A program made the translations under genes and the position numbers. From a virus: a DNA stretch of 29,521 nt. The notes beneath the pieces are model-generated. The model was not told the DNA's origin and ran no database searches. It worked only from the letters and a program-made list of their open reading frames with translations. The stretch spans positions 1-29,521 of the IMG/VR virus record IMGVR_UViG_3300020450_000068, one strand, 5' to 3'. Of this stretch, positions 4,638 through 7,817 are shown one piece after another. Positions within the stretch are counted from its first letter, which is position 1; every line of letters starts with the position of its first letter.

Positions 4638-4921
4638 AAAAAACTAATGGACATAAAATATATTTTTCAGAAAAAAAATTTAAAGTTTTAAAATTTATAA
4701 AAGATTTTATTGAAAAATATAATTATTCGCCAACTTTATTTGAAATTGCAAATCAGTTTGGTTATTCAAGAGCTAGAGCAGGTGTTATTGTTAGGGATCT
4801 GTACAAAATGGGTTTGATTTATAAAGGTGAAAGCAATCATAGAAAAATAAGAATGACTGCTAATCAAATAAGTTCAGTTAAAAATTTAAAATTTAATAGG
4901 GAGTTTCAAGCACATGCCTAA
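4634..4921 (+). CDS. LexA-type winged-helix DNA-binding domain protein
   Basis: 95 aa. Residues ~12-75 match the LexA N-terminal DNA-binding domain: FIEKYNYSPTLFEIANQFGY (SPT and EIA are diagnostic), then SRARAGVIVRDLYKMGLI and RKIRM in the wing. There is no C-terminal S24 peptidase half; the remaining ~20 residues are polar. It overlaps the preceding gene as ATGA. It is probably a small regulator, either of the phage's own promoters or of host LexA-type sites; no target can be assigned. Confidence 0.75.
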   Translation: MKKTNGHKIYFSEKKFKVLKFIKDFIEKYNYSPTLFEIANQFGYSRARAGVIVRDLYKMGLIYKGESNHRKIRMTANQISSVKNLKFNREFQAHA

Positions 4922-5126
4922 GATTACAAAAGAAAGTTATTTTGATGTCCAATGTAAGGCACAAGAAGAATTTGAAAGTGTAGAACAAGCTATGCAATCA
5001 AATAGACCTAGTGAAAATTCTATGGTCGAAATCTTGAATGTTAATATTACTAACACCAAGATTAAAACAATAAAGGAGCAACAAGAAGCAAATGAGTCTA
5101 AGCAACAGCAAAAGCCTCAAGTATGA
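4914..5126 (+). CDS. small acidic early protein, unknown
   Basis: 70 aa, no family recognised. The N-terminal half is helical and acidic (VQCKAQEEFESVEQAM). The middle has a short beta-like segment (MVEILNVNITNTKIKTI), and the tail is Gln-rich. It overlaps the LexA-like gene by 8 bases and the next gene by up to 35, so it is expressed with the early operon. Confidence 0.5.
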   Translation: MPKITKESYFDVQCKAQEEFESVEQAMQSNRPSENSMVEILNVNITNTKIKTIKEQQEANESKQQQKPQV

Positions 5127-5328: not shown

Positions 5329-5342
5329 AAGGAGGGAGCTTG
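5329..5342 (+). promoter_or_regulatory. strong ribosome binding site selecting a TTG start
   Basis: AAGGAGGGAGC directly precedes TTG at 5340. It is the strongest Shine-Dalgarno match in the early operon, where most starts have almost none. It makes the TTG start more credible than ATG at 5358, which would lie too far away. Confidence 0.6.
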
Positions 5343-5843
5343 AGAACTAAATTATCTATGATTAAGAGTGCCATGAAAGCACCTCAATATGAAAATTTAA
5401 CAACTCAAGAATTAAATATTTTTCAATCAGGTTTTAGGAATGGATTTAATATTGCTCATTTAGAATTTAAAGAAAAAATTAAAAAATTACATATTATCAT
5501 TAAACACCTCAAAAAAAGACAACCGATATTAATTCAAACTGATTTAAAAAAAACTGCATCAGCAAATGATATGAAAAAAGTCCTACAATGGGTTTCAAAT
5601 AAATTTAATGTTGATGAAAATGTTATCACTGCAAAATCAAGATTGGCAGATGTAACAAAATTAAGATCCCTTGCATTAAATATTATTTATGAAAATTACG
5701 ATGTCAGCACACCTGCTATGGGTAGATTTTTTAACATGGATCATACAAGCATATTGCACCACATAAATAATAAAATGAATTTAAGAAGCTGTTGGAAAAG
5801 TAATTCTAATTTATGGAAATATTATAATGAATTTAAAAGTTAA
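5340..5843 (+). CDS. stand-alone DnaA domain IV-like DNA-binding protein
   Basis: 167 aa. Residues ~78-148 match the C-terminal DnaA-box-binding domain of the bacterial initiator: ITAKSRLADVTKLRSLAL corresponds to the basic loop and helix (SKSRxxxVTxARxxAM), and MGRFFNMDHTSILHHINNK to the IGxxFxRDHTTVLHA signature (Asp134-His135-Thr136). There is no AAA+ Walker region; the first 75 residues are a short helical extension. The protein could bind DnaA boxes to recruit or block host initiation, or act as a regulator. It is the last gene before the terminator. Confidence 0.8.
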   Translation: MRTKLSMIKSAMKAPQYENLTTQELNIFQSGFRNGFNIAHLEFKEKIKKLHIIIKHLKKRQPILIQTDLKKTASANDMKKVLQWVSNKFNVDENVITAKSRLADVTKLRSLALNIIYENYDVSTPAMGRFFNMDHTSILHHINNKMNLRSCWKSNSNLWKYYNEFKS

Positions 5844-5978: not shown

Positions 5979-7121
5979 TTAATTCCAAATAATATTTTCT
6001 GAAAATTTTTGTTGCTTATTGTTATGCTCAAATGGAGCAATATAAGTTCTATTAACAAAGTTTATATCTTTATCACCAATAAAATGTGCAAGTTCTAAAG
6101 CATTGTTAAACTTACCTTTAGCTGCAAAATAAGTAGTTCTATAATGCCTAAAAAGGTATGCTTTTCGCTTGATTGGAAAATCCTGATACTCAGGTCGCAT
6201 TTTTTTAAAACTCTTGTTTATGGCTCTTATAAGCCTTTCTACGCATATATATTTACCTTTTGTATTAAGAAATAGTTTATCTTGTAGGTCAGGCAAGGAA
6301 TTGACATAATCTACTATATGATCTTTAAGCGATGCTGATATTTCAACAATTCTCTCACCCTGTTCAGTTTTTGTTTCACCAAGTTTCTTATGCCTTTTTA
6401 CTGCCTTATTTATATTTATTTGCAAATTGTTTGATTTTAAGAATATCAAATCCGATCTTTCTAATGCTCTTATCTCACTTGGTCTTGCAGCAGTTTCTAA
6501 TAAGATCATATATATAAGTTTAATCATCTTATCATCAATATTGTAGATAAGCTCTTGCATGACCTCAAAAGTCCAAAAATCAAGATCAATCTTTTTTCTT
6601 TTTTTATTGGGTGTAAATATATCTGTTAAATAATTAATATCTTTTGTAATATTAAAATCTAGCCTACCTTTGTCTGCACAATAAGAAATAATATTTTTAA
6701 AATGATTAAATATTTTAGTGATTGTTTTACCATCTAATTGTTTGCTTTTTAAGGACTCTATAAAATCAATTATATTTTGCTTTTCAATTAATCTTACATC
6801 TTTGTTTTTAAAAAATGGATAGATATGGCATTTATAAAAACTATGATAATCTTCAATAGTGCTATCGCTAGTTTTACCAATGCTCCTTTTATAATTAAGG
6901 TGGGAGTTTACAAAAAAGTCCTTTGCCTCATTTAAGGTAAGCTCTTGGCTATTTGTTTTGATAAAACCTCTGTCTTTAAATATTTTTTCTATTTTATCAT
7001 TTAGTAAGGCCTTAGTAGGTGCTTGTAAAAAAGCTGTTTTACCATCTGCTTTTTTATATTCAAACCTTGCAATTTTTTTACCTTTTTTATTTATGGTAAA
7101 ATGTATATTGTAATTAATCAT
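5979..7121 (-). CDS. int: tyrosine recombinase integrase
   Basis: 380 aa, normal length. Residues 1-60 are an arm-binding N-terminal domain (HFTINKKGKKIARFEYKKAD), 65-165 the SAM-like core-binding domain, and 180-365 the catalytic domain. Arg213 (AARPSEIRAL), Lys251 (ETKTEQGER), Arg325 (YLFRHYRTT) and the nucleophile Tyr360 (FVNRTYI) are in place. Tyr322 stands where HxxR usually has His, a variant known in other integrases. IGDK puts Asp350 where the second His/Trp is expected. A good AAAGGAGAG precedes the ATG. It lies beside the attP and acts on the tRNA-Thr site. Confidence 0.92.
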   Translation of the reverse strand: MINYNIHFTINKKGKKIARFEYKKADGKTAFLQAPTKALLNDKIEKIFKDRGFIKTNSQELTLNEAKDFFVNSHLNYKRSIGKTSDSTIEDYHSFYKCHIYPFFKNKDVRLIEKQNIIDFIESLKSKQLDGKTITKIFNHFKNIISYCADKGRLDFNITKDINYLTDIFTPNKKRKKIDLDFWTFEVMQELIYNIDDKMIKLIYMILLETAARPSEIRALERSDLIFLKSNNLQININKAVKRHKKLGETKTEQGERIVEISASLKDHIVDYVNSLPDLQDKLFLNTKGKYICVERLIRAINKSFKKMRPEYQDFPIKRKAYLFRHYRTTYFAAKGKFNNALELAHFIGDKDINFVNRTYIAPFEHNNKQQKFSENIIWN

Positions 7122-7124
7122 TTT

Positions 7125-7178
7125 CTCTCCTTTAATATAGTTATCATTTAGTTATACCATTGTTATCATCTATTGCAA
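7125..7178 (-). promoter_or_regulatory. integrase promoter and ribosome binding site
   Basis: On the minus strand TTGCAA (7173-7178), 16-bp spacer, TATAAC (7151-7156), then AAAGGAGAG eight bases before the ATG. The -35 is inside dyad copy 3. A second GTTATCAT (7140-7147) lies 22 bp from the one in the dyad (7162-7169), two helical turns apart, bracketing the -10. Confidence 0.6.
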
Positions 7179-7179
7179 C
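7162..7179. promoter_or_regulatory. predicted repressor operator, copy 3
   Basis: GTTATCATCTATTGCAAC. Apart from the first base it matches copy 2 (2326-2343) at 15 of 17 positions. It covers the -35 of the integrase promoter, so the repressor could shut integrase off together with the early genes. Confidence 0.55.
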
Positions 7180-7193
7180 TAATCAATTGACAT

Positions 7194-7238
7194 AACTATG
7201 TAGAAAATATGAGAAAAAACTATGTAAAAACTATGTAA
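7194..7238 (+). repeat. integrase arm-type sites, P arm (three copies)
   Basis: AACTATGTAG (7194-7203), AACTATGTAA (7218-7227) and AACTATGTAA (7229-7238). The last two are 11 bp apart, about one helical turn. They lie between the integrase promoter and the attP core, as expected for arm-type binding sites of a lambda-like integrase. Confidence 0.7.
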
Positions 7239-7274
7239 AAAAATAACAAATACAATTTTTAGCCATAATTTAGG

Positions 7275-7316
7275 CACAAAAAAAGTGGCTCTTATACTTA
7301 AATTAGTATAAAAGCC
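7275..7316 (-). terminator. rho-independent terminator of the late operon
   Basis: GGCT-c-TTATACT, loop TAAATT, AGTATAA-a-AGCC (7287-7316) is an 11-bp stem with one mismatch. Read on the minus strand it is followed by ACTTTTTTT, a good U tract. It would stop the long leftward late transcript after the attP and before it enters the integrase promoter region. Confidence 0.7.
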
Positions 7317-7331
7317 TATATATTTAACTAT

Positions 7332-7373
7332 GCCCTTGTAGCTCAGCTGGTAGAGCAATTGATTTGTAATCAA
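7332..7373 (+). other. attP core: 5' half of a tRNA-Thr(UGU) gene
   Basis: The sequence has a complete tRNA 5' half: acceptor strand GCCCTTG, D arm GCTC-AGCTGGTA-GAGC, and anticodon arm ATTGA-TTTGTAA-TCAA with anticodon TGT at 7365-7367. After TCAA the tRNA pattern stops (no variable loop, T arm or acceptor 3' strand). This is the expected signature of an integration core shared with a host tRNA gene. It is unusual in carrying the 5' rather than the 3' part. An arm-like AACTATG (7326-7332) abuts it. Confidence 0.8.
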
Positions 7374-7418
7374 AGTGCTGCCACAATAAAAGCTAATTTT
7401 ATTATATTTTTGTCCACT

Positions 7419-7481
7419 GACTATGTAACAACTATGAAACATTGGTGAATACTTTATTAACACAATGTCAATAACATAGTC
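7419..7481. repeat. integrase arm-type sites, P' arm (two direct, one inverted)
   Basis: GACTATGTAA (7419-7428) and AACTATGAAA (7430-7439) are again 11 bp apart. An inverted copy, GACTATGTTA on the minus strand, lies at 7472-7481. They use the same motif as the P arm on the far side of the core. A separate perfect stem AATAGCT-CTA-AGCTATT sits at 7499-7515, without a T run. Apart from these, 7122-7550 holds no gene. Confidence 0.65.
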
Positions 7482-7550
7482 AAGCCCACCCTGCACCCAA
7501 TAGCTCTAAGCTATTTCCGATCTACTAAACAAGTCGATCTTCCTATTCTG

Positions 7551-7817
7551 TTAAGCAAAAGTTTTGACATTTATTGGTTTGCCACCAGTATTGCCTTTTC
7601 TTTGTGCTTTTCTTTTTCTTGTTACTGCACTCCTAATTTGCGATGCAGACATTCTTCTAGCTTTTGCAAGAGGCACACATTTTGGGTACTTAGATTTTCT
7701 ATCTTTTTCAAGCTTAGACCTTCCACATTTTGCAAAAGATCCATCTTTTTTTCTTGAGCCAATATCAACCCAGTTTTGCCTAAACCATTTTGTAAGTCCA
7801 GCTCTTGCTCTGCTCAT
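7551..7817 (-). CDS. small basic late protein (WVDI/CGR/YPKCVP type)
   Basis: 88 aa, strongly basic. It has the order W-F-x-QNWVDIGSRKKDG, AKCGRSK, YPKCVPLAKA, then AVTRKRKAQRK, a pattern I know from small proteins of marine phages and some large viruses without an assigned role. Two Cys at equal spacing after the WVDI could bind metal or form part of a small fold. It is the last gene of the late operon, starting on the ATGA of the previous stop. Confidence 0.7.
   Translation of the reverse strand: MSRARAGLTKWFRQNWVDIGSRKKDGSFAKCGRSKLEKDRKSKYPKCVPLAKARRMSASQIRSAVTRKRKAQRKGNTGGKPINVKTFA

Follow-up and report, generated by a model that had tools for sequence, protein, structure and literature searches.

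The question raised by this locus is what would transcribe a host tRNA gene after insertion of a phage that itself carries the 5′ half of that gene. The DNA analyzed here, referred to as the window, is virus record IMGVR_UViG_3300020450_000068 over its whole length (positions 1 to 29,521, 29,521 bases). An earlier note on it had proposed that positions 7332–7373 are an attP with the 5′ half of tRNA-Thr, so that the prophage would have to provide the upstream region of the tRNA or the host would depend on another copy. The explanation we favor, and regard as probable, is an attP at tRNA-Thr with a phage-built upstream module that would keep the tRNA expressed in the lysogen.

Results

Gene layout and integrase

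Head, portal, and lysis genes lie on the minus strand of the window and ERF-like, LexA-like, and DnaA-C-domain genes on its plus strand, with the integrase gene placed between these two arms. The product of the last of the plus-strand genes named (5340–5843) is small and matches the C-terminal, origin-binding domain of DnaA (8e-11). The integrase is a tyrosine integrase of 380 aa on the minus strand (5979..7121), directed away from the proposed attP, which matched the PHROG integrase family at 4.7e-32 and Pfam Phage_int_SAM_3 at 2.9e-6, with a sub-threshold match to Phage_integrase; a 10-member alignment of its relatives (A1) was built. A candidate int promoter, TTGCAA and TATAAC separated by a 16-nt spacer (7151..7178, minus strand), was picked out by eye and as a conserved block, and is absent from the output of the consensus promoter scan, which requires a final T in the −10. 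When the integrases of three clade members were searched against 50,697 phage records, these queries gave only distant matches (<29%) among phage isolates or none. The closest cultured match by major capsid was HTVC106P (58%), which has no annotated integrase.

The tRNA half and its match to SAR11

Positions 7332..7373 on the plus strand match bases 1–42 of the tRNA-Thr(UGU) of SAR11 (Pelagibacterales) exactly, as the earlier note had supposed from the letters alone, and this 42-mer occurs once in the virus record. ARAGORN found no tRNA in the window, and the Rfam tRNA model gave the half 27.5 bits, short of its cut-off of 29, the 3′ part being absent. Identity with the SAR11 gene starts 2 nt upstream of tRNA base 1 and runs through base 42, the last of the anticodon stem. 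The comparison with host tRNA-Thr(UGU) genes that the note had called for yielded the exact 42-mer in at least 119 species-genome stretches, and it was also present in 19 IMG/VR stretches; an exact match over 42 bases cannot be put down to chance. Among 80 matches listed, 78 were titled Pelagibacteraceae, Pelagibacter, or Pelagibacterales and two were bins labelled Flavobacteria. These two (L065 and L095, with Flavobacteriales/Flavobacteriaceae labels) contain a SAR11 tRNA-Thr with island-type upstream DNA and are probably misbinned. Because of the exact matches in these stretches, and because the pattern with two variable bases was found in 218 of 397 Pelagibacterales genomes, the predicted host is SAR11-like.

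The attachment site

The anticodon stem-loop core occupies 7358..7373 (plus strand), where identity ends, and is the only part kept in the core-only relatives described below; the 7-base anticodon loop within it (7363–7369, plus strand) is the likely overlap region and thus the presumed position of strand exchange. The core is flanked left and right by arm-type repeats. To the left are two ACTATGTA units (7195–7214 and 7219–7238, plus strand; repeat family D1), kept in the C-group alignment, and to the right are a further, conserved ACTATGTA unit of the same family (7420..7439, plus strand) and an inverted arm pair, TGACTATGT / ACATAGTCA (7418–7426 and 7474–7482; inverted repeat I7, 100% complementary). 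These putative arm-type repeats are conserved even in relatives whose integrase identity falls to about 59%. In all nine phages compared, identity with the host gene broke off at the anticodon stem or slightly beyond it (base 41–45).

When phage and host were joined in silico in the anticodon loop, the int-side junction gave a complete tRNA-Thr(tgt) with phage DNA in front of it for nine of nine phages, the arrangement that the note had predicted, and the other junction gave a tRNA for none of the nine; as controls, the native host gene was detected and phage DNA alone gave no tRNA. Since the tRNA half adjoins a tyrosine integrase and has arm-type repeats on both sides, 7332–7373 is, on this reading of the sequence, the attP of that integrase, with crossover presumed to fall in the anticodon loop. 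A recombinase gene beside the site, identity ending at the anticodon arm, and flanking arm-type repeats are among the features expected of an attP at the anticodon subsite, and the presence of the 5′ part of the tRNA in the phage element is what distinguishes 5′-half integration.

Relatives of the phage

The 5′-half pattern was found in 70 IMG/VR stretches, nearly all of them with the same layout of hairpin, AT-rich box, fixed spacing, and half. Fifty distinct flanking contexts were compared, the window included, and two of these, with a whole host-like tRNA and unrelated upstream DNA (L012 and L018), were excluded from comparison of the module. Clade integrases were 35–100% identical to that of the window, and a whole group of SAR11 viruses appears to use the 5′-half arrangement. 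Eight relatives (L294–L296, L298, L302, L304, L307, and L315) have a tRNA-Asn 5′ half instead, behind the same module (anticodon GTT by eye), with exact matches in 12 of 31 SAR11 genomes. Two others have a complete tRNA-Thr at attP behind the same promoter (L002:6732–6804 and L019:5138–5210; 73.1 bits), with a 3′ half different from that of the host; we rejected these as integrated junctions, since phage genes lie on both sides and the tRNAs are thus whole and phage-encoded.

Other variants were seen among the relatives. In L246, L251/L336, L252, L335, and L338, all C-type, attP is reduced to a 14–15-base anticodon core, so that integration would break tRNA-Thr as it does in tRNA-dependent lysogeny; no tRNA was found in the parts of their sequences searched. 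The tRNA half is lost and the hairpin retained in L144 (about 4850–4960), L317, and L331, and L144 has also lost the left arm repeats while retaining an open 380-aa integrase. L140, L205, L223, L238, and others have attP variants with A at a D-loop position, a form that matched none of 397 SAR11 genomes, and despite this A the L140 integrase is 99.7% identical to that of the window. An A-type hairpin without tRNA-like attP occurs in L265/L318, L287/L332, L310/L319, and L324, with a related integrase in L265, L287, and L310; between L310 and L003, a relative with the tRNA-Thr half, integrase identity is 97%.

The upstream module

An A run and a hairpin form the start of the module in every type. 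The hairpin of the window is an intrinsic terminator followed by a T run on the minus strand (7287..7316), identified by terminator search and by its fold z-score of −5.0, and it is the only terminator in 7050–7560, where shuffled sequences give 0.2. Among six distinct C-type hairpins, each of the eight plus-strand mismatches becomes a G-U wobble when read on the minus strand, so that the minus strand has none left; among seven A-type hairpins, the three extra plus-strand mismatches are likewise minus-strand wobbles, with the other 14 mismatched on both strands. The hairpin therefore looks, from its substitutions, to be maintained as minus-strand RNA, which would fit the need for a late-operon terminator in front of int.

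Between hairpin and half lies TATATATT (7317..7324, plus strand), 7 nt before the tRNA and a candidate −10 of a phage-supplied tRNA promoter; the TATATT that the earlier note had pointed to is correctly placed within it at 7319–7324. The box has the same position and spacing in seven of the eight distinct att regions of type C that carry a tRNA half, the exception (L207) having an insertion, and the distance from hairpin to base 1 is 15 nt in 7/8. A similar box also occurs in five core-only C-type contexts (in changed form in L246) and in the tRNA-less L144. In the window and in type C generally the candidate −10 is conserved and the −35 is poor. Promoter-like matches in the window were not enriched (5 versus 3.6 expected), and a full sigma-70 promoter in the window itself was set aside as unsupported by the consensus scan; a phage-supplied promoter there is suggested by position and by the family.

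Relatives of types A and B present a fuller picture. In each of the 34 distinct hairpin/spacer combinations that precede a tRNA half, 24 nt separate hairpin and tRNA, and TTG at −41 and TATAA at −18, with a 17-bp spacer between them (TTG-N17-TATAA), occur in 23 of 23 distinct 60-nt upstream sequences, counts that rest on related phages and do not constitute an independent-sample statistic. L199, outside the 23-sequence count, has the same layout. By comparison, TATAA is in register in none of seven distinct A-type att regions without the half; two of the seven are deletions (L317 and L331), TATAA lies 4 nt earlier in L287 and L310, and TTG is lost in L287, L310, and L324. Types D (two contexts) and E (three contexts) have the hairpin without a clear TTG-N17-TATAA, as judged by eye. 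The note had seen only weak promoter candidates, which holds for the window itself with its poor −35 and does not hold for the relatives, where a terminator/box module is conserved and types A and B have the full TTG-N17-TATAA. From conservation of this promoter-like element in relatives, we infer that the restored tRNA would be transcribed from DNA of the element.

The host gene

The tRNA-Thr pattern was present as a single copy in 212 of the 218 genomes that contained it and as two copies in six. In four of these six, the ones inspected, the extra copy was a 5′ half only; G032 and G147 are outside this count. With tRNA-Thr(UGU) usually encoded by one gene in SAR11, a second copy to fall back on is unlikely, and the suggestion that the host might rely on another tRNA-Thr does not hold up.

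The context of the host gene was compared in a sample of 119 SAR11 stretches with 122 matches, three of them at a contig end and five of them 5′ halves only. Ninety intact tRNA-Thr genes lay 39–54 nt after rlmB (named from its translation), and TTGAT was present at −42..−33 in 90/90. In the same sample, 24 of 117 intact genes had foreign DNA in front, and 22 of these 24 had a TTGAT of their own within 60 nt. Two stretches, L077 and L084, retain a dead 5′ half with the native promoter, and about 4.1 kb downstream of it comes an intact gene preceded by a new upstream region. G118 and G194 likewise have a dead half 2.6 and 9.7 kb upstream of the intact gene, and in G001 the segment measures 10 kb and contains a DNA methyltransferase-like gene. 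Replacement of the promoter region by 5′-side insertion of other elements thus takes place at tRNA-Thr in SAR11 chromosomes.

Islands of 2.6–10 kb between a dead 5′ half and an intact tRNA-Thr were seen in L077, L084, L189, L190, L191, and L156. Several share similar ends with different cargo, no integrase was noticed nearby, and they look like cargo elements moved in trans. We considered whether the 4 kb and 10 kb segments were prophages of the window's integrase family and rejected this; they contain transporters, a methyltransferase, and similar cargo (named from translations). No match to the window integrase was found beside the islands in the genome stretches compared, and the upstream sequence of the islands differs from that of the phage. 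Tyrosine recombinase matches were obtained in 18 of 25 island-type genomes, mostly to one gene of about 300–330 aa, which by its length may be XerD-like.

Search for lysogens

At E 1e-20 or better, the window integrase family was found in 0/397 SAR11 genomes taken by order and 0/387 taken by family, two overlapping sets, and the same profile found four of four phage control records. No integrated junction of this phage was present in the 397/387 genomes sampled; these zeros signify absence in the sample and not disproof.

Discussion

Patterns detected are consistent with the following course of events. The integrase would recombine the 42-base core with the single SAR11 tRNA-Thr(UGU) gene in the anticodon loop. 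As it is the 5′ half that the phage brings, the native promoter would be left with a dead 5′ half at one junction, and the int-side junction would hold the intact tRNA with phage DNA upstream, in the order TATATATT or TATATATAAG module, 5′ half, and then host AGGTCCGCGG. The minus-strand terminator would halt antisense late-operon transcription before int, and the short promoter region directly before tRNA base 1 would keep the essential tRNA expressed in a lysogen.

An alternative explanation could be that the attP is real and the upstream block a late-operon terminator only, with TATATAT as the AT-rich flank of the hairpin and the tRNA transcribed from elsewhere in the phage, e.g. further left on the plus strand, or transcribed poorly. 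This would account for the minus-strand wobbles (8/8 in type C and 3/3 of the extra plus-strand mismatches in type A), for persistence of hairpin and TATATAT box in L144 and the core-only C-type relatives, and for the lack of a good −35 in the window, but it would not account for the observation that TTG and TATAA of types A and B are invariant and in register before the tRNA half while, in relatives lacking the half, the hairpin persists without these elements, nor for the fixed distance to base 1 (24 nt in A/B, 15 nt in 7/8 of C). Moreover, the nearest plus-strand gene upstream of the half ends at 5843 with the antisense int in between, and we consider a terminator alone unlikely. That the half is not an attachment site at all and is instead a functional RNA or a remnant, such as a tRNA fragment acting as a decoy or a defective tRNA gene of the phage, is highly improbable; the complete tRNA-Thr at the same place in L002 and L019 would be compatible with it, but the half sits between arm repeats beside int, identity ends at base 41–45 in 9/9 phages, and five distinct C-type relatives keep just the 14–15-base core.

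It is also possible, if doubtful, that integration is transient or very rare and that the promoter question hardly arises in nature. The zero counts of the integrase in 397 and 387 SAR11 genomes and the loss of the half in L144, L317, and L331 are consistent with this, as is the behavior of T7-like cyanophages, of which S-TIP37 and P-SSP7 are described as entering tRNA-Leu during lytic infection, with no stable lysogens found (PMC8776855). Nevertheless, the tRNA half is intact in most relatives with the promoter-like element in register, and the window has a LexA-like DNA-binding gene, though this by itself is no proof of lysogeny. Taken with these observations, an attP whose upstream module keeps the tRNA expressed in a lysogen is the explanation we retain as probable.

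Phage-supplied expression of an integration target has precedents. According to a review, restored tRNA genes of bacteria keep their original promoter with very few exceptions (PMC8371274), and Islander lists 159 islands with a 5′ fragment versus 3760 with a 3′ fragment (PMC4383910), which bears out the note's contention that carriage of the 3′ end is usual. On account of these two statements, the present arrangement belongs to a rare known kind, of which it is a clade-wide variant. Islander islands with a displaced 5′ tDNA fragment have the same geometry, but the word promoter does not occur in the Islander text, and here a phage clade shares one module (PMC4383910). The pTN3-like integrases of Thermococcales, which the review sets against the bacterial rule, are similar in that a tyrosine integrase is involved and the restored tRNA is described as driven by a promoter of the element; they are however archaeal and the integrase's own promoter is said to serve, whereas here int is directed away from the tRNA, toward which a distinct terminator/promoter module points (PMC8371274). 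In tRNA-dependent lysogeny of actinobacteriophages, as described, a phage-supplied promoter-bearing element also secures an essential tRNA after integration, but there the tRNA is disrupted at a short core and replaced by a complete one from the phage, while here a half is restored (PMC10865867). In the present case the 42 bases rebuild the tRNA in silico and the window, which possibly represents an incomplete record, has no whole tRNA; among the relatives, the core-only L246 and L251 could be of the actinobacteriophage kind. T7-like cyanophages and the pelagiphage/Fonsiphage group resemble the present phage as marine or freshwater phages with an integrase and a tRNA attB (PMC8776855, PMC6811365), the latter with SAR11-type hosts as here (PMC6811365), but the target described for both is tRNA-Leu, unlike tRNA-Thr (PMC8776855, PMC6811365), and uv-Fonsiphage carries its own tRNA-Leu (PMC6811365). 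No SAR11 phage with a 5′ tRNA half was found in the literature, judged mostly on titles and abstract openings. New here is a SAR11 phage clade with the 5′ half as a rule, whose members have a terminator/promoter module in common and switch between tRNA-Thr and tRNA-Asn as targets.

Once inserted, virus DNA would have to switch on a single-copy host tRNA gene, and re-wiring of this gene does occur in chromosomes, with foreign DNA in front of about a fifth of the intact tRNA-Thr genes (24/117). More tentatively, promoter capture may be the normal lysogeny of a large clade of uncultured SAR11 phages, in which the only tRNA-Thr(UGU) or tRNA-Asn gene would be re-wired to a phage promoter with an antisense terminator, and loss of the module would be lethal to the host. 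SAR11 are the most abundant bacteria of the ocean, and with this clade it can be tested concretely who is in control of an essential single-copy tRNA once integration has occurred, with a promoter/terminator module defined at the level of sequence that is assayable outside SAR11. If promoter capture is true, an essential component of translation would depend on a prophage.
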